Source: Bacteroidales bacterium
GTDB lineage: Bacteria > Bacteroidota > Bacteroidia > Bacteroidales > UBA10428
NCBI GenBank assembly: GCA_016933335.1
Contig: JAFGBD010000004.1
Location: 20,019-84,018, forward strand
Direction: 5' to 3'
DNA: 64,000 nt
Position numbers and translations under genes: made by a program. Shown piece after piece: positions 17,141-48,376 of this stretch. The notes beneath the pieces are model-generated. The model made no database searches. It was not told the DNA's origin and was given only the letters and a program-made list of their open reading frames with translations. How positions within the stretch are numbered: the stretch's first letter is position 1; each line of letters opens with the position of its first letter.

Positions 17141-18367
17141 ATGGATGTTCAGTCGATCAAACAACGTTTTGGAATAATAGGAAATTCTCCTGCACTTAAC
17201 AGGGCAATAGATGTTGCCCTGCAGGTTGCACGTGCTGATTTATCGGTATTGATTACAGGAGAGAGCGGCGTGGGTAAAGAGGTCTTTCCGCAGATTATTC
17301 ATCAATACAGCAGCCGGAAACACGGGACATACATTGCGGTAAACTGTGGCGCCATTCCCGAAGGTACCATTGATTCAGAGCTTTTTGGCCATGAAAAGGG
17401 ATCCTTTACGGGAGCCTATGACAGCCGCAAGGGGTATTTCGAGGTAGCAAACGGGGGTACTATCTTTCTCGATGAGGTAGCCGAGCTTCCTCTTTCTACC
17501 CAGGTCAGGCTTCTCAGGGTACTGGAAACAGGAGAGTTTTTAAAGGTGGGATCTTCAAAGGTCATAAAGACCAATGTCAGGGTTATTGCCGCCACAAATG
17601 TGGATATACAGCAAACCATACAGCAGGGAAAGTTCCGTGAAGATCTTTTTTACAGGCTGAATACAGTGCCCATTGACATTCCTGCGCTCAGGGAAAGGAA
17701 AGAGGATATTCCCATACTGTTCCGCAAATTTTCGCTTGATTTTGCCGAGCGGAACAGGATGCCTGCCATCATGCTCACAGAAGATGCCATGCAAATACTC
17801 ATGAATTACCGGTGGCCTGGTAATATCAGGCAATTAAAGAACATTACCGAACAGATATCCGTCATAGAACAGAACAGGGAGATCACGGCCGATATTATGA
17901 GAACTTATCTTCCCGATTACTATGAGTCAAAGCTTCCGGCATTATTTGATGCGGTTGATCAGAAAACCTTTGCAAACGAAAGGGAAATATTATATAAAAT
18001 ACTGTTTGATCTGAAAACCGATGTCACCGATTTAAAAAAACTGGTATTGGATATCATGCAGAAAGGTAAGGGCGGAATTGAAATTCATGAGGACAATGCA
18101 AGGCTGATCAAAAAGTTGTATGACATTTCGGAACCAGTGGAAGAAGATGGTATGACATCACGGAAAATTGATATCGGAAAAATGGAGGTGAAAGATATAC
18201 AGGATACTGAAGAGATTGTTGAGGAATCCTTATCACTTGAAGAAAAAGAAAAGGAGCTTATAAAGAAGGCACTTGACAAGCATAACGGAAAGAGAAAATA
18301 TGCTGCCGGTGAGCTTGGTATCTCTGAGAGAACATTGTACAGGAAAATCAAGGAATATAATATCTGA
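17141..18367 (+). CDS. Sigma-54 interacting AAA+ transcriptional activator (no receiver domain)
   Basis: Walker A GESGVGKE, GSFTGA loop, Walker B GGTIFLDEVAELP, YRWPGNIRQLKN, C-terminal Fis-type HTH. Confidence 0.95.
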   Translation: MDVQSIKQRFGIIGNSPALNRAIDVALQVARADLSVLITGESGVGKEVFPQIIHQYSSRKHGTYIAVNCGAIPEGTIDSELFGHEKGSFTGAYDSRKGYFEVANGGTIFLDEVAELPLSTQVRLLRVLETGEFLKVGSSKVIKTNVRVIAATNVDIQQTIQQGKFREDLFYRLNTVPIDIPALRERKEDIPILFRKFSLDFAERNRMPAIMLTEDAMQILMNYRWPGNIRQLKNITEQISVIEQNREITADIMRTYLPDYYESKLPALFDAVDQKTFANEREILYKILFDLKTDVTDLKKLVLDIMQKGKGGIEIHEDNARLIKKLYDISEPVEEDGMTSRKIDIGKMEVKDIQDTEEIVEESLSLEEKEKELIKKALDKHNGKRKYAAGELGISERTLYRKIKEYNI

Positions 18368-18390
18368 TCATGAGGCGAATACATGAAGTC

Positions 18391-18903
18391 ATGAAAAAAG
18401 TAATCACATATATTGTCATTTTCATATTGCTGATATCTCTGTATTCCTGCTTTACGATGAAGTACTCCACCACCGGTGCATCCATTCCGGTTGAGGCCAA
18501 AACAGTGTCGGTGCAGTTTTTTGAGAACAGGGCCCCGCTTGTTGATGCCACACTAAGCCAGCAGCTTACCGATGCGCTTAAAGATTATATCCAGGCAAAT
18601 TCGAAGCTGATCCTGGTAAACGGTATCGGAGAACTTGATTTTGAAGGTGAAATAACAGGGTATGATTCGCGTCCCACCTCTATTTCAGCAGGTGATATTG
18701 CTGCCAACAGCAGGTTTACAATAACTTTGAATGTGAGGTATACCAATACGTTCGACTCATCCAAGGACTGGGAAATGAGCTTCAGCAGGTTTGAGGAATA
18801 TCCTTATGACCAGTCGTTTGAAGAAGCCCAGGCTGCCTATACAGAAGATATTCTAAAGCTGCTGATCGAAGATATATATAATAAAGCATTTGTCAACTGG
18901 TAG
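18391..18903 (+). CDS. lptE: LptE-like LPS-assembly lipoprotein
   Basis: Lipobox ISLYSC, SIPVEAKTVSVQFFENRAPLVDATLSQQLTDALKDYI; lies between the sigma-54 activator and secG. Confidence 0.8.
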   Translation: MKKVITYIVIFILLISLYSCFTMKYSTTGASIPVEAKTVSVQFFENRAPLVDATLSQQLTDALKDYIQANSKLILVNGIGELDFEGEITGYDSRPTSISAGDIAANSRFTITLNVRYTNTFDSSKDWEMSFSRFEEYPYDQSFEEAQAAYTEDILKLLIEDIYNKAFVNW

Positions 18904-18912
18904 AACCGGTGC

Positions 18913-20004
18913 ATGATGAATAAGGCTGATTTATCAAAATACCTGAAGAATCCGGGGGATCTGGATAGCCAGACCCTGGGGGAGTTGAATCTGCTGAAGG
19001 ATGAATTCCCTTATTTCCAGACAGCTCACCTTCTGGCTACAAAAAATCATCATAATGTCAGCAGTAGCGATTTTGACAGGACACTCCATCTGGCCGCGGC
19101 ATATGTTTCAGATCGTCGTGTGCTGTATGATTTATTGTATAATCCGGGTCTTGTCTCTGTCCGGCTGGAAAAGGACAGGGCTGATATTTCAGGAAGCAGA
19201 ATAATAAAAGACAGCCTGAAAGAAAATATTTCAGCGACGCTTAACAGCCAGGTCCGGAATATGAAAGATTTTGATGATGATCAGAAGGAATTGATACCTG
19301 AAGTAGCCATTGATGTGAGAAAAGAATATGGGGAGGGTATCGAGCTTGATGATACTGATTTCAGCATCAGGCTTTCGCACGGCAGGGAAGATGACCATGA
19401 AAAGGAATCTGCAGAAAGGATAATAACTGTTGAAGAAGAGAAAAGGCATATCCCGGTTGAAGAGGATCCGGAAATCCTCGAACTGGAAGATCATTTATCT
19501 GTTTTGCCGGATGGTTGTACAGAAGAGGAAGCCTTTGGTGCGGCCGGAGATACGAAAGATCTGCCGGGAGAGACAGGTATGATTGATACGGGGCAGGATG
19601 AGCCCATCGAGTTTGATCTCGAAGAACGTGTCATCACAGATACAGATAAAGAAACAGAAAAACCGTTATTCGTAAATGGTTCTCCGGAAGAAAGCGGATC
19701 AGAGCAACGCACCGTCACCGGCAGCAGGGATTCAGATGTTGACCTGATAGAAAAATTCATCAGAAAAGGATCAGGGAAGATCTTACCGAAAGAGAACCAC
19801 AATGAACTCATCGACATCTCTGAAGAAAGTGTGAAGGAGCATGAGGGATATATTACCGATACCCTTGCAAAGATCTATATAAAACAAGGTTATTATTCGA
19901 AAGCCATTTTTGCTTACGAAAAATTAATTTTGAAATTTCCCGAAAAAAGTAGTTACTTTGCAGCTCAGATCGAAGAGATAAAAACAATAATCAGGAATCT
20001 ATAA
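18913..20004 (+). CDS. Conserved hypothetical protein, C-terminal TPR-like
   Basis: Acidic linker; C-terminal TDTLAKIYIKQGYYSKAIFAYEKLILKFPEKSSYFAAQIEEI. Confidence 0.75.
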   Translation: MMNKADLSKYLKNPGDLDSQTLGELNLLKDEFPYFQTAHLLATKNHHNVSSSDFDRTLHLAAAYVSDRRVLYDLLYNPGLVSVRLEKDRADISGSRIIKDSLKENISATLNSQVRNMKDFDDDQKELIPEVAIDVRKEYGEGIELDDTDFSIRLSHGREDDHEKESAERIITVEEEKRHIPVEEDPEILELEDHLSVLPDGCTEEEAFGAAGDTKDLPGETGMIDTGQDEPIEFDLEERVITDTDKETEKPLFVNGSPEESGSEQRTVTGSRDSDVDLIEKFIRKGSGKILPKENHNELIDISEESVKEHEGYITDTLAKIYIKQGYYSKAIFAYEKLILKFPEKSSYFAAQIEEIKTIIRNL

Positions 20005-43248: not shown

Positions 43249-44058
43249 ATGGCAACAGAACATCTTTTACTGGCTTTTGCATTCACGCTTTTTGCGGGCT
43301 TGTCAACAGGCATAGGCAGTGCGATTGCTTTTTTCGCGCGCACGACAAACACCAGGTTTCTTTCCGTTGCGCTCGGATTTTCTGCCGGGGTGATGATTTA
43401 TGTTTCGCTGATTGAGATATTCAGTAAGGCAAAGGAGTCGCTTGTTATCAGTCTTGGAGAATCCCGGGGTTACTGGGTTACTGTCATTGCCTTTTTTGCA
43501 GGTATGTTTCTCATTGCCATCATCGACAGGCTGGTCCCTGAAGAGGAGAACCCGCATGAGATCAAACTGGTTGAAGGCATAGAGCACCCGGAGATTTACA
43601 GGAAAAACAGGTTGCTCAGGATGGGATTGTTTTCGGCACTTGCCATTGCCATCCACAATTTTCCCGAAGGACTTGCCACATTTACAGCCACCCTGAGGGA
43701 TCCGGGACTGGGTATTGCCATTGCTGTTGCAATAGCCATTCACAACATACCAGAAGGTATTGCCGTTTCGGTACCGATATATTATGCCACAGGTGACAAA
43801 CGCAAGGCATTCAGGCTGTCTTTCCTGTCGGGACTTGCAGAGCCTGCCGGAGCGCTGATCGGATACCTTATCCTGCTGCCCTTTTTCAATGATGTGATAT
43901 TCGGCGTGCTGTTTGCCTCTGTGGCAGGCATCATGGTATTTATTTCGGTGGATGAGCTCCTTCCTGCAGCAAGGGAGTATGGCAAGGCGCACCTGTCGAT
44001 ATACGGGCTTATAGGCGGTATGATCATCATGGCTGTCAGCCTGTTGCTTTTTGCATGA
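43249..44058 (+). CDS. zupT: ZIP family zinc transporter ZupT
   Basis: [16 protein letters not shown] and [22 protein letters not shown] signatures. Confidence 0.95.
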
Positions 44059-44420
44059 TAAGTAACGTGATAAATTATATACTGCTTATATTCATTGTAT
44101 TGTTTATCTGTCATGATCTGAACGGACAGGAACCGTTTGAGCTGGTCGGTGACAGGCCCGATCAGACAGAATCTTCCTTAGCAGTCCCGCATCAATCCCT
44201 GCAGATTGAATCAGGATTCCTTTACATGAAAAGTACAGGCAATGACGCTGAATACATCCATACAGAGTATAACAGCACATTGCTGAGATTCGGATTGATG
44301 AAATTCATGGAATTAAGATTTGGAGCAGGTTTTGAAGCGACCATACCGGGAACAGGAATCATTTACAGGTTCACTCTTTTTGATCCCGGCTCCGGAGATT
44401 TGCAGTCCGAAAACCTGTAA
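44055..44420 (+). pseudogene. Truncated outer-membrane transporter-like (Phenol_MetA_deg-like) fragment
   Basis: Signal peptide then LVGDRPDQTESSLAVPHQSLQIESGFLYMK...LLRFGLMKFMELRFGAGFE; the ORF then reads into unrelated sequence and stops at 121 aa. Confidence 0.5.
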
Positions 44421-44517
44421 TATCAGGCTTAATCATTCATACTATCTTTAGAGCACTATTCCCATCGAAAAATCTCTGATTATATGTATTTTTGCTGTCC
44501 TGGATAATTTTCAACCA

Positions 44518-45441
44518 TTGAACAGGGAACTTGAAATAAAACGGGCATCGTGGATTGCCATATCAGGCAATGCATTGCTTGCCGCTGTTAAGGTGGCGGC
44601 CGGATTGATATCCGGCAGTCTTGCAGTGGTTGCCGATGGTATCGATTCGCTGAGCGACATCATCACCTCGTTGATAATATTGATAGCGGCAAGGATACTT
44701 TCAAGGCCTCCGGACATCAGGTTCCCTTACGGTTATGGTAAGGCAGATACCATTGCCACAAAAGGACTATCCTTCATCATCCTTTTTGCAGGTGCGCAGC
44801 TGGCCATTACCACTGTCAGGAGACTGATCCAGGGCACGGCTACCGAACTGCCGGCAAAACTTGCCATCGTGGTGACAGTCATATCAATAGTAGGGAAGCT
44901 TTTGCTGGCAAGGCACCAGAAAAAGACCGGCAAAAAAACTTCCAGCGCCATGCTGACAGCCAACGGCCGCAATATGCAGAATGACGTGCTGATATCGGTT
45001 TCGGTGCTTACCGGACTGTTTTTCACTTACATTCTGAAGATGCCAGTCATTGATTCCATCACTGCATTGCTGGTCAGTATCTGGGTCCTTAAGACCGGCT
45101 TCGATATTTTTATGCAGACCAATATCGACCTGATGGATGGTATTGATGATTGTTCCATTTATAATGAGATTTTTACTGCCATCGATCAGGTTGAGGGCGC
45201 TAACAATCCCCACAGGGTACGCGCACGAAAGATAGGGGATAAGATCATGGTTGGGGTTGATATAGAGGTTGACGGGAGTATTCCTGTTCAGGAGGCACAT
45301 CATATTGCACATAAGGTTGAAGCAAGCATCAGGTCAAGGATCGGCAATATCTTTGATGTTGCTATACATATGGAGCCGCTGGGCGATAAAACAGATGAAA
45401 AAAAATTCGGGATATCCAAAGAGTCCCTGCCGAAAGAGTAA
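44518..45441 (+). CDS. Cation diffusion facilitator family transporter
   Basis: ISGSLAVVADGIDSLSDIITSLI, RFPYGYGKADTIATKGLSF, HRVRARKIGDKIMVGVDIEVDGSIPVQEAHHIAHKVE; probable TTG start. Confidence 0.92.
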   Translation: MNRELEIKRASWIAISGNALLAAVKVAAGLISGSLAVVADGIDSLSDIITSLIILIAARILSRPPDIRFPYGYGKADTIATKGLSFIILFAGAQLAITTVRRLIQGTATELPAKLAIVVTVISIVGKLLLARHQKKTGKKTSSAMLTANGRNMQNDVLISVSVLTGLFFTYILKMPVIDSITALLVSIWVLKTGFDIFMQTNIDLMDGIDDCSIYNEIFTAIDQVEGANNPHRVRARKIGDKIMVGVDIEVDGSIPVQEAHHIAHKVEASIRSRIGNIFDVAIHMEPLGDKTDEKKFGISKESLPKE

Positions 45442-45631: not shown

Positions 45632-45678
45632 TTTGGCAATTACGATTTATGTCGTATATTTGTACGATAAAATTCGTA
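45632..45678 (+). promoter_or_regulatory. Promoter with paired BlaI-type operator dyads upstream of the blaI-like gene
   Basis: TTTG (45632-45635), 19 bp, TATATTTG (45655-45662); TACGA-TTTATG-TCGTA (45641-45656) and TACGA-TAAAAT-TCGTA (45663-45678), both perfect 5-bp arms, centres 22 bp apart. Confidence 0.8.
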
Positions 45679-45683
45679 GTTTC

Positions 45684-46067
45684 ATGATAAACAAAACAGT
45701 CAGACCAACTGCAGCAGAACTGGAGATACTCCAGGTTCTGTGGAGATACAAATCGGCAACGGTCAGGTTTGTACACGATAAGATCAATCAAAAGAAAAAT
45801 GTGGGATATACCACAACCCTGAAGATCATGCAGAACATGGCAGCTAAAAGGATGGTCAGAAGAGAGCAGAACGGAAGGAGTCATGTTTACATTCCTTTGT
45901 TAAAGAAGGAAGAAACCCAGGGTATGCTGCTGGATAAATTCCTCGACACCGCATTCGGTGGCTCTGCTTCAACACTTGTGATGCAGGTTCTGGGTAATCA
46001 CAGGACAAGCGGGGAAGAGCTCGATCAGATCAAAAAGTTAATTCAGAAGCTGGAGGAAAAGAAATGA
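45684..46067 (+). CDS. BlaI/MecI/CopY family transcriptional repressor
   Basis: PTAAELEILQVLWRYKSATVRFVHDKINQKKNVGYTTTLKIMQNMAAKRMVRREQNGRSHVY. ATG at 45684 preferred; the listed ORF start at 45621 would place the promoter/operators inside the CDS. Confidence 0.95.
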   Translation: MINKTVRPTAAELEILQVLWRYKSATVRFVHDKINQKKNVGYTTTLKIMQNMAAKRMVRREQNGRSHVYIPLLKKEETQGMLLDKFLDTAFGGSASTLVMQVLGNHRTSGEELDQIKKLIQKLEEKK

Positions 46068-48376
46068 CAAACTTCATAAACTCGTTATTGCCTTCCGGTG
46101 TTGTGGAGGCTTTCGGATGGATGATCCTGCATTCTTTGTGGCAGGGAGCAGTTATTTCGGTAATACTGGGACTGATGATGATTATCACCCGGAAGTTCAG
46201 TGCCGGAAGCAGGTATTTCATTGCCATTACGGCCATGCTGTTCATGCCGGTTACAGCAGTTTATACCTTTTTCAGGTATTATACCCCTGCAGGGTCAGTT
46301 ATGACAGTTGAGGCACCTATGGTCAGATCTGAAGCTGTTGTTACAGCCACGAACACCCAATCGGAGGAAAACAGGATCCGCCCTGTTACACTGCCGGCAG
46401 CTGAAAAGAGGGTTAGCGGCAGGATGAGATCATACCGGGAATATTTTTATCAGCACATACCTTTTATCGTTACCATCTGGATGCTCGGCATGCTTGTATT
46501 TGCCCTGAAGTTTTTAGGCGGACTGGCATATACGCAGAGGCTTAAACATTACAGGATACTGCCTGTCAGTGATGAATGGCAGCAGGTCTTCGACCGTCTG
46601 GCCAAGATGCTGAACCTGAAAAAGGCCGTCAGGATATTGCAGTCCACCCTGGTCACGGTACCGATGGTTGTCGGTTATTTTAAACCGGTGGTGCTGATAC
46701 CCGTAAGTGCTTTCACAGGATTATCACCAAAGCAGCTTGAGGCTGTTATCCTGCATGAGCTGGCGCATATTGTCAGGAAAGACTATATCATCAACATCCT
46801 GCAGTCGGTTGTTGAGATCATCTTCTTCTATCACCCGGCCGTATGGTGGATGTCAAAAATGGTAAGGCAGGAAAGAGAGCACTGCTGCGATGACATTGCC
46901 ATCGAAAAATCAGGCGATTCGGTCAGTTTTGCCAAAGCCCTGGCCAATATCCAGGAACAGATATTTATAAGGGAGAATATTGCCTTGGCCCTTGGAAGAG
47001 ACAGCAATCATTTGTTCAAACGTATTAAAAGATTATTAAACCAACCAAACATGAAAACAAATTTTACAGAAGGATTTACGGCATCATGCATCATCTTTGC
47101 AGGCATATTTATCATGATGCTCAATACAGGCTCCGCAAGATTCACCGCAGGAGATAACATGCAATCGAAAACAGCACAATTCATAAACGATGTCATGGGC
47201 AACGCGGATGATACAGTTAAAACAGCAATCCCTAAGGAATCGGCAGGCCAGGGCAGTGCCGAAGACAGGCTGTTTGAGCTGGAGCAGGATAGAAAGGCTG
47301 TTGATGCTGGCAGAAGGTCAGTTGAAGAAGAAAAAGCAGGAAAAGAAATCAGCAAAGCAGAAACAGAAGCCAGGGAGAGGGAAATGGAAGCTAAAAAGGC
47401 TGAGAAGGAGGCTGAAAAAGCACTGATCGATGCTGAAACAGAGAAGAGAGAGGTTGAAGAAGAAATAATCCAAGGGGTGGAGGCAGGACTGGAAGAGATG
47501 GACATCGATGCAGTAGTGGATGAAGCCATGGCAGGTGCCGAAGCGGGCATAAGCGGAATGGACCTTAACAGGATCGTGAGGGAAGCTGTCGAAGGGATAA
47601 GGACCGGCGTGAAGGAGATTGACGCGGAGATCATTTCAGAAGAGATATTGCATGGCATAGAGGCTGCGATCTACGAAATAGATTTAAATGTTTTTGCAAG
47701 TGAGATCATATCGGGAGTACGTACTGCGCTGCAGGAGATTGATGTGAACAGGATCGTGCAGTATCACCTACAGGCCCGGCCAGGCCAGGAAAGCTTCAGG
47801 GGAGAGCCCGGCCAGCTGGATATCATCAGCCGGGGTGTGGGTGAATGGAATCAGTGGAGGGATGATAATCCGGGGATTGAGCCCGATCTGAGGGGTGCCT
47901 GCCTGAGCGATGCCAATCTTAATTCGATAGACCTGCACGATGCCCTTCTTGATAACATCGATCTGAAAGAGGCAGTGCTTGACTGGGCCAATCTTGAGGG
48001 CGCCAGCCTGAGATACGCCATTCTGAAAGAAGCCACATTTAACGGGGCACGTATGATGCGGGCTGACTTTTCACATGCAGATATGAAAGAGGTTACACTG
48101 TCCGGTATGCTTCTGCGCAATACCATTTTTCACGGCACCAACCTGAAAGAGGCTGACCTCAGCGGGGCAGATCTGCGTGACAGTGATTTAAGTAATGCTG
48201 ATCTGGGTGAAGCAAGTCTTGTGAAGGCCGACTTAAGGGGAACCAACATAAGGGGAGCGGACTTAAGCGAAGCACAGCTCACCGGGGCAAAGATGCAGGG
48301 GGCCATGATAGACGACCATACCCTCCTGCCACCAGGGTTTAACCCGGCTGCGGAGGGTATGGTGACAGGGGACTGA
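46064..48376 (+). CDS. M56 (BlaR1-like) membrane metallopeptidase with coiled coil, 5 x 20-aa repeat and C-terminal pentapeptide repeats
   Basis: AVILHELAHIVRKDYIINILQ (HExxH), YHPAVWWMSKMVRQEREHCCDDIAI; repeat array at 47474-47773; pentapeptides LSGADLRDSDLSNADLGEASLVKADLRGTNIRGADLSEAQLTG. Confidence 0.93.
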   Translation: MTNFINSLLPSGVVEAFGWMILHSLWQGAVISVILGLMMIITRKFSAGSRYFIAITAMLFMPVTAVYTFFRYYTPAGSVMTVEAPMVRSEAVVTATNTQSEENRIRPVTLPAAEKRVSGRMRSYREYFYQHIPFIVTIWMLGMLVFALKFLGGLAYTQRLKHYRILPVSDEWQQVFDRLAKMLNLKKAVRILQSTLVTVPMVVGYFKPVVLIPVSAFTGLSPKQLEAVILHELAHIVRKDYIINILQSVVEIIFFYHPAVWWMSKMVRQEREHCCDDIAIEKSGDSVSFAKALANIQEQIFIRENIALALGRDSNHLFKRIKRLLNQPNMKTNFTEGFTASCIIFAGIFIMMLNTGSARFTAGDNMQSKTAQFINDVMGNADDTVKTAIPKESAGQGSAEDRLFELEQDRKAVDAGRRSVEEEKAGKEISKAETEAREREMEAKKAEKEAEKALIDAETEKREVEEEIIQGVEAGLEEMDIDAVVDEAMAGAEAGISGMDLNRIVREAVEGIRTGVKEIDAEIISEEILHGIEAAIYEIDLNVFASEIISGVRTALQEIDVNRIVQYHLQARPGQESFRGEPGQLDIISRGVGEWNQWRDDNPGIEPDLRGACLSDANLNSIDLHDALLDNIDLKEAVLDWANLEGASLRYAILKEATFNGARMMRADFSHADMKEVTLSGMLLRNTIFHGTNLKEADLSGADLRDSDLSNADLGEASLVKADLRGTNIRGADLSEAQLTGAKMQGAMIDDHTLLPPGFNPAAEGMVTGD
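47474..47773 (+). repeat. Five tandem 20-aa (60-nt) protein repeats inside the M56 protein
   Basis: GVEAGLEEMDIDAVVDEAMA / GAEAGISGMDLNRIVREAVE / GIRTGVKEIDAEIISEEILH / GIEAAIYEIDLNVFASEIIS / GVRTALQEIDVNRIVQYHLQ. Confidence 0.9.

Follow-up and report, generated by a model that had tools for sequence, protein, structure and literature searches.

BlaR1 is, to our knowledge, known almost solely as an antibiotic sensor. In the Staphylococcus BlaR1/MecR1-BlaI/MecI systems (MEROPS M56), a membrane protease is paired with a repressor; BlaR1 is oriented N-out/C-out, carries the zinc motifs H201ExxH and E242xxxD246, and cleaves BlaI directly (PMC9834060). Bacteroidota possess BlaI-M56 pairs of their own, in which the protease goes by the name 'M56 family metallopeptidase' and ends mostly in a coiled coil or an undefined C-terminus. 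The locus described here has the same gene order, operator and promoter layout as these pairs, but its M56 protein ends in a pentapeptide half. A literature search, with most subscription journals outside its coverage, turned up no published M56 or BlaR1 protein with such a half.

We analyzed a 64,000-nucleotide stretch of Bacteroidales DNA (the window). Its open reading frames include a single intact frame of 770 aa, in which an M56 zinc-protease/membrane domain is followed by a coiled coil, five 20-residue repeats, a WNxWR cap and 29 pentapeptides:

46064..48376, + strand: M56-pentapeptide fusion gene, 770 aa (Pfam Peptidase_M56 and Pentapeptide)
46133..46975, + strand: Peptidase_M56 domain, residues 24-304 (Pfam; aligns to BlaR1 cryo-EM chain 8exs)
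46754..46768, + strand: zinc-binding HELAH, residues 231-235 (sequence, alignment to BlaR1)
46877-46891, + strand: E272xxxD276 zinc motif (sequence, alignment to BlaR1)
47063..47149, + strand: last transmembrane helix, residues 334-362 (AlphaFold helix, hydropathy)
47258..47449, + strand: charged coiled coil, residues 399-462 (in AlphaFold, part of a single long helix, 399-478)
47450..47749, + strand: five gapless 20-residue repeats, predicted helical, residues 463-562 (autocorrelation; three relatives)
47801..47881, + strand: cap GxxxxLxIxxxGVxxWNxWRxxNPxxxPDL, starting at residue 580 (also opens free-standing proteins L126, L135 and L136)
47882..48316, + strand: 29 pentapeptide repeats, residues 607-751, with E (mostly KE) in each fourth repeat

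The match to Peptidase_M56 (PF05569) is strong (E 1e-32, 113.9 bits vs. a gathering score of 31). Aligned to 8exs, H231ELAH and E272HCCD match the two BlaR1 zinc motifs gaplessly and at identical spacing, and H231, E232, H235, E272 and D276 are invariant across 68 M56 proteins. By sequence, then, the M56 domain, with its zinc site and membrane helices, is a BlaR1-type protease, as the initial annotation had proposed. The resemblance stops at the C-terminal half, which that annotation had called wholly different from the BlaR1 sensor. The NCBIfam blaR1 model covers residues 28-350 only and scores far below its cut-off, no penicillin-binding domain was matched in Pfam or NCBIfam, and, unlike in BlaR1/MecR1 systems, no beta-lactamase or PBP gene adjoins. 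Since the penicillin-binding half was sought and is absent, the predicted protein is not a beta-lactam sensor of known type.

Such an unusual fusion could in principle be an assembly chimera or a frameshifted join of two genes. Nothing was found for this reading, which has practically no chance of being correct; the two orthologues whose genes are interrupted by a contig end or a run of Ns (L004, L005) likewise have all five units, along with the cap and the rod. Against it stands a full-length orthologue from a separately deposited Bacteroidales MAG (JAFGPL010000313.1; L022/L003), 53% identical, with the same domain order and five repeats. Together with the partial orthologues, which span all C-terminal junctions, this independent assembly of the same fusion rules out an assembly join.

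The five repeats following the coiled coil are the same array that was initially placed at 47474-47773, read in another phase. Their self-similarity (mean BLOSUM62 score of 1.24 for residues 20 apart and 1.18 for residues 40 apart) is far higher than the maximum reached in 5000 shuffles (0.27), and three relatives have the same five copies. In the AlphaFold model the array forms short helices, each about 17 residues long, that break near (I/M)D(L/I)N positions (pLDDT ~50; pTM 0.28 when modeled alone). A constant-length helical repeat, as first suggested, is thus supported by the models; they are too weak to show the suggested solenoid, and the array may instead be a spacer. No significant match was found in Pfam, PDB sequences or PDB folds, the fold comparison being weak because the array model is poor. 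When we searched 395 genomes of the class with an array profile (E 1e-6), the source genome alone matched, and the exact repeat therefore looks restricted to its family. Relatives L006, L007 and L009 carry weaker versions of it. In another relative (L028, 997-1602), several 19-residue repeats are built on an I-D-x-x-x-I pattern much like that of the array, a hint that the array grew out of a widespread M56 coiled-coil motif.

Beyond the array, a linker and the cap, the pentapeptides, tandem repeats of the A(D/N)LXX type, run unbroken (Pentapeptide E 1e-33, 114.5 bits vs. a cut-off of 20.2), the count of 29 falling within the original estimate of roughly 25-30, and AlphaFold predicts a beta-helix (pLDDT ~97). 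Where the rod is fused to M56, Glu closes every fourth pentapeptide, as a rule preceded by Lys, which produces a stripe with a 20-residue spacing on one face of the rod; the Glu-ending blocks, six in all, lie on that single face (permutation p 8.5e-5). The Lys-Glu stripe is present in 5/5 M56-pentapeptide proteins and was not found in the 11 free-standing pentapeptide proteins that we read. Three free-standing proteins, from Nostoc (L135), Chlorohelix (L136) and Bacteroidales (L126), open with the same cap (shared form NEEHLxILxxGVxxWNxWRxxxxxxxPDL) followed by pentapeptides, but have neither a membrane part nor a K-E ladder each 20 residues. Because this cap begins free-standing proteins across Cyanobacteria, Chloroflexota and Bacteroidales, the module from residue 580 onward was probably captured whole. 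L126 and L136 also have a common C-terminal domain (LILGRF...FDFE...FIIADI), which looks TIR- or nucleotide-binding-like by eye. Among proteins of known structure, Alr5209 and HetL (PDB 6omx, 3du1) are likewise pentapeptide beta-helices; residues 665-765 align to Alr5209, and the Alr5209 model scores just under its NCBIfam cut-off (122.7 vs. 125 bits), here in fusion with an M56 protease.

The best-known pentapeptide proteins, Qnr and MfpA, act on gyrase and are cytoplasmic. For the present protein AlphaFold and hydropathy give four membrane helices (11-41, 47-72, 119-160 and 334-362), and the net charge is +8 in the protease part, 0 in the loop 73-118 and negative beyond the last transmembrane helix. 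Given the helices, the charge pattern and the N-out/C-out topology of its BlaR1 homolog, the C-terminal half with its repeats probably faces the periplasm. A role of the rod on DNA gyrase is therefore very improbable. It would draw on sequence and fold similarity to Qnr and MfpA, but Alr5209, HetL and synthetic pentapeptide solenoids match better than Qnr, and the NCBIfam models for Qnr (37.7 bits vs. a cut-off of 240) and MfpA (47.4 vs. 360) score far too low. We rejected this role mainly on the predicted topology, which places the C-terminal half outside the inner membrane.

How common is this architecture? By Pfam, pentapeptides occur in 5/68 Bacteroidota M56 proteins, all from one family; the 68 were gathered by similarity to this protein from limited genome draws, with few candidates scored per genome, so the fraction is no phylum frequency. 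In a tree of the M56 domains, the five fall into two well-separated groups, four together (support 100/98) and L010 apart. L010 has no 20-residue array, and its rod is one coil (20 residues) shorter. Its sister L011 (100/100) is without pentapeptides and carries repeated 'TSGGSI' motifs at its C-terminus; the survey's single DUF4097 match most likely belongs to L011. Since the stripe is shared by both groups, their sequences suggest that the pentapeptide module was passed between M56 lineages.

A recognizable folded C-terminal domain was found by Pfam in just a handful of the 68 proteins, and relatives without a penicillin-binding half are the rule in this sample. While M56, BlaI and the operator stay constant in the sampled Bacteroidota, the C-terminal halves vary widely and consist for the most part of coiled coil. 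MerR matches in two members (L060, L062) were discarded, as by eye they have the look of charged coiled coil. Two M56 proteins of another Bacteroidota family (L084, 943-3702; L085, 1069-3771) carry a different C-terminal tandem array, which in L084 has units of about 26 residues, GI(K/R)PEYVKEMK.GY..DEIKE.GVL; it is helical, unrelated-looking and in the same position. Many Bacteroidota M56 proteins, including L024, L027, L032, L043, L060 and L081, bear a small unnamed C-terminal motif, DGLI...Y...L....M.VNGK.QP..V..KY..LYE, which is present twice in L060 and L081.

This diversity is what one would expect if the C-terminal half were an anchor or ruler reaching the peptidoglycan or outer membrane, or a means of self-association, with the signal read elsewhere, for example in the TM2-TM3 loop; the EL1 loop of BlaR1 does take part in signaling (PMC9834060). 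However, the KE face and the cap are conserved residue by residue over two M56 branches, beyond what a passive rod would need, and we consider this reading unlikely.

The BlaI partner assumed in the initial annotation is encoded directly upstream. Its gene overlaps the start of the M56 gene by 4 bp, and in the promoter ahead of it the -7 element lies between two inverted repeats:

45632..45635, + strand: -33 element TTTG of a Bacteroidota-type promoter (sequence)
45641..45656, unstranded: operator dyad 1, TACGATTTATGTCGTA (exact TACGA-N6-TCGTA)
45655..45662, + strand: -7 element TATATTTG, between both dyads (layout as in 35/37 paired-dyad loci)
45663..45678, unstranded: operator dyad 2, TACGATAAAATTCGTA (exact TACGA-N6-TCGTA)
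45684..46067, + strand: blaI-like repressor gene, 127 aa (Penicillinase_R, PF03965, E 2e-25; Pfam)

The BlaI-like protein is collinear over its full length with residues 1-125 of S. aureus BlaI, and an adjacent full-length BlaI with dyads over the promoter is a further likeness to the staphylococcal systems. In this alignment Gln101-Val102, near which cleavage would be predicted, corresponds to Asn101-Phe102 of S. aureus BlaI. The promoter (TTTG, 19 bp, TATATTTG) corresponds to the Bacteroidota consensus TTTG-N19-TAnnTTTG. Unlike BlaR1/BlaI, the pair has its own dyad, TACGA-N6-TCGTA, and apparently itself as the sole target: a scan of the 4.05-Mb genome finds the exact dyad twice, each time at this promoter. 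Of 69 distinct, related blaI loci sampled from the phylum, 64 carry one or more exact dyads, with just two more in the remaining 262 kb of locus sequence. Close dyad pairs occur at 37/69 blaI loci, and 35 of these 37 pairs enclose TAnnTTTG. Across 23 genomes of the source family, close pairs were found at blaI only, except on one short contig (G011 C159) on which no blaI was recognized. As the dyads sit at the blaI promoter and recur at blaI genes, we infer that BlaI binds them. A wider regulon was sought among the 38 one-mismatch dyads of the genome, and nothing convincing emerged: of 13 inspected, 12 lie within ORFs, and the remaining one sits between genes, upstream of an ORF of 161 aa.

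The gene neighborhood agrees with this narrow target. BlaI is upstream in nearly every sampled relative with upstream DNA to inspect, M56 is mostly the final gene of the transcription unit in these relatives, none follows it in the source unit, and beyond the blaI-M56 pair we found no synteny between genera. With exact dyads only at its own promoter, M56 last and no further synteny, the pair would be chiefly autoregulatory. Of the sensor coupled to BlaI derepression that was initially suggested, the BlaI partner stands, and the target appears to be only its own operon. Genes for ZIP-like and CDF-like metal transporters (named by eye) occupy 43249-45441, just upstream of blaI; they are not syntenic in relatives and are thus probably unrelated to blaI-M56.

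Above the Pfam cut-off, the genes for BlaI and for M56 each number exactly two in this genome, and they form two pairs. The second pair is divergent (L002, G000 contig C72, ~17153-19560), and the exact TACGA dyad was not found upstream of its blaI. These observations, together with the failure to find either another exact operator elsewhere in the genome or a co-transcribed effector gene, would also fit a protease whose main substrates are membrane or envelope proteins rather than BlaI, with BlaI as a feedback gauge matching protease to demand. Imperfect or half-site BlaI targets could nevertheless exist, and the source assembly is 93% complete; we regard this possibility as the less likely one.

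Our preferred reading, which we think fairly probable, is that the protein is a BlaR1-type transmembrane signaling protease in which a different half has taken over the periplasmic position, making the locus a variant of BlaR1/BlaI that, by analogy, probably works like it. In this model the C-terminal half would project into the periplasm, where the helices would serve as spacer or lever and the conserved face of the beta-helix would bind a component of the envelope. The last membrane helix would pass on such binding, or its loss, to the zinc site in the cytosol, and this site would cleave BlaI. Loss of BlaI would derepress the blaI-M56 operon, so that the protease level would be set by the state of the envelope. 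A broader proposal, which strikes us as rather doubtful, is that BlaI-M56 pairs are closed two-gene loops throughout the Bacteroidota, each repressor governing its own operon alone and the proteases, with their exchangeable periplasmic halves, acting on substrates other than BlaI, and that the pentapeptide rod with its K-E ladder is one of many swappable envelope probes and serves the membrane protease as a sensor.

If our preferred reading is correct, a protease-repressor engine of the BlaR1 kind has been coupled to periplasmic modules that can be exchanged, much as those of histidine kinases are, and pentapeptide rods would gain a predicted sensing role in the periplasm. The two-dyad operator makes both the regulon and the signal directly testable.
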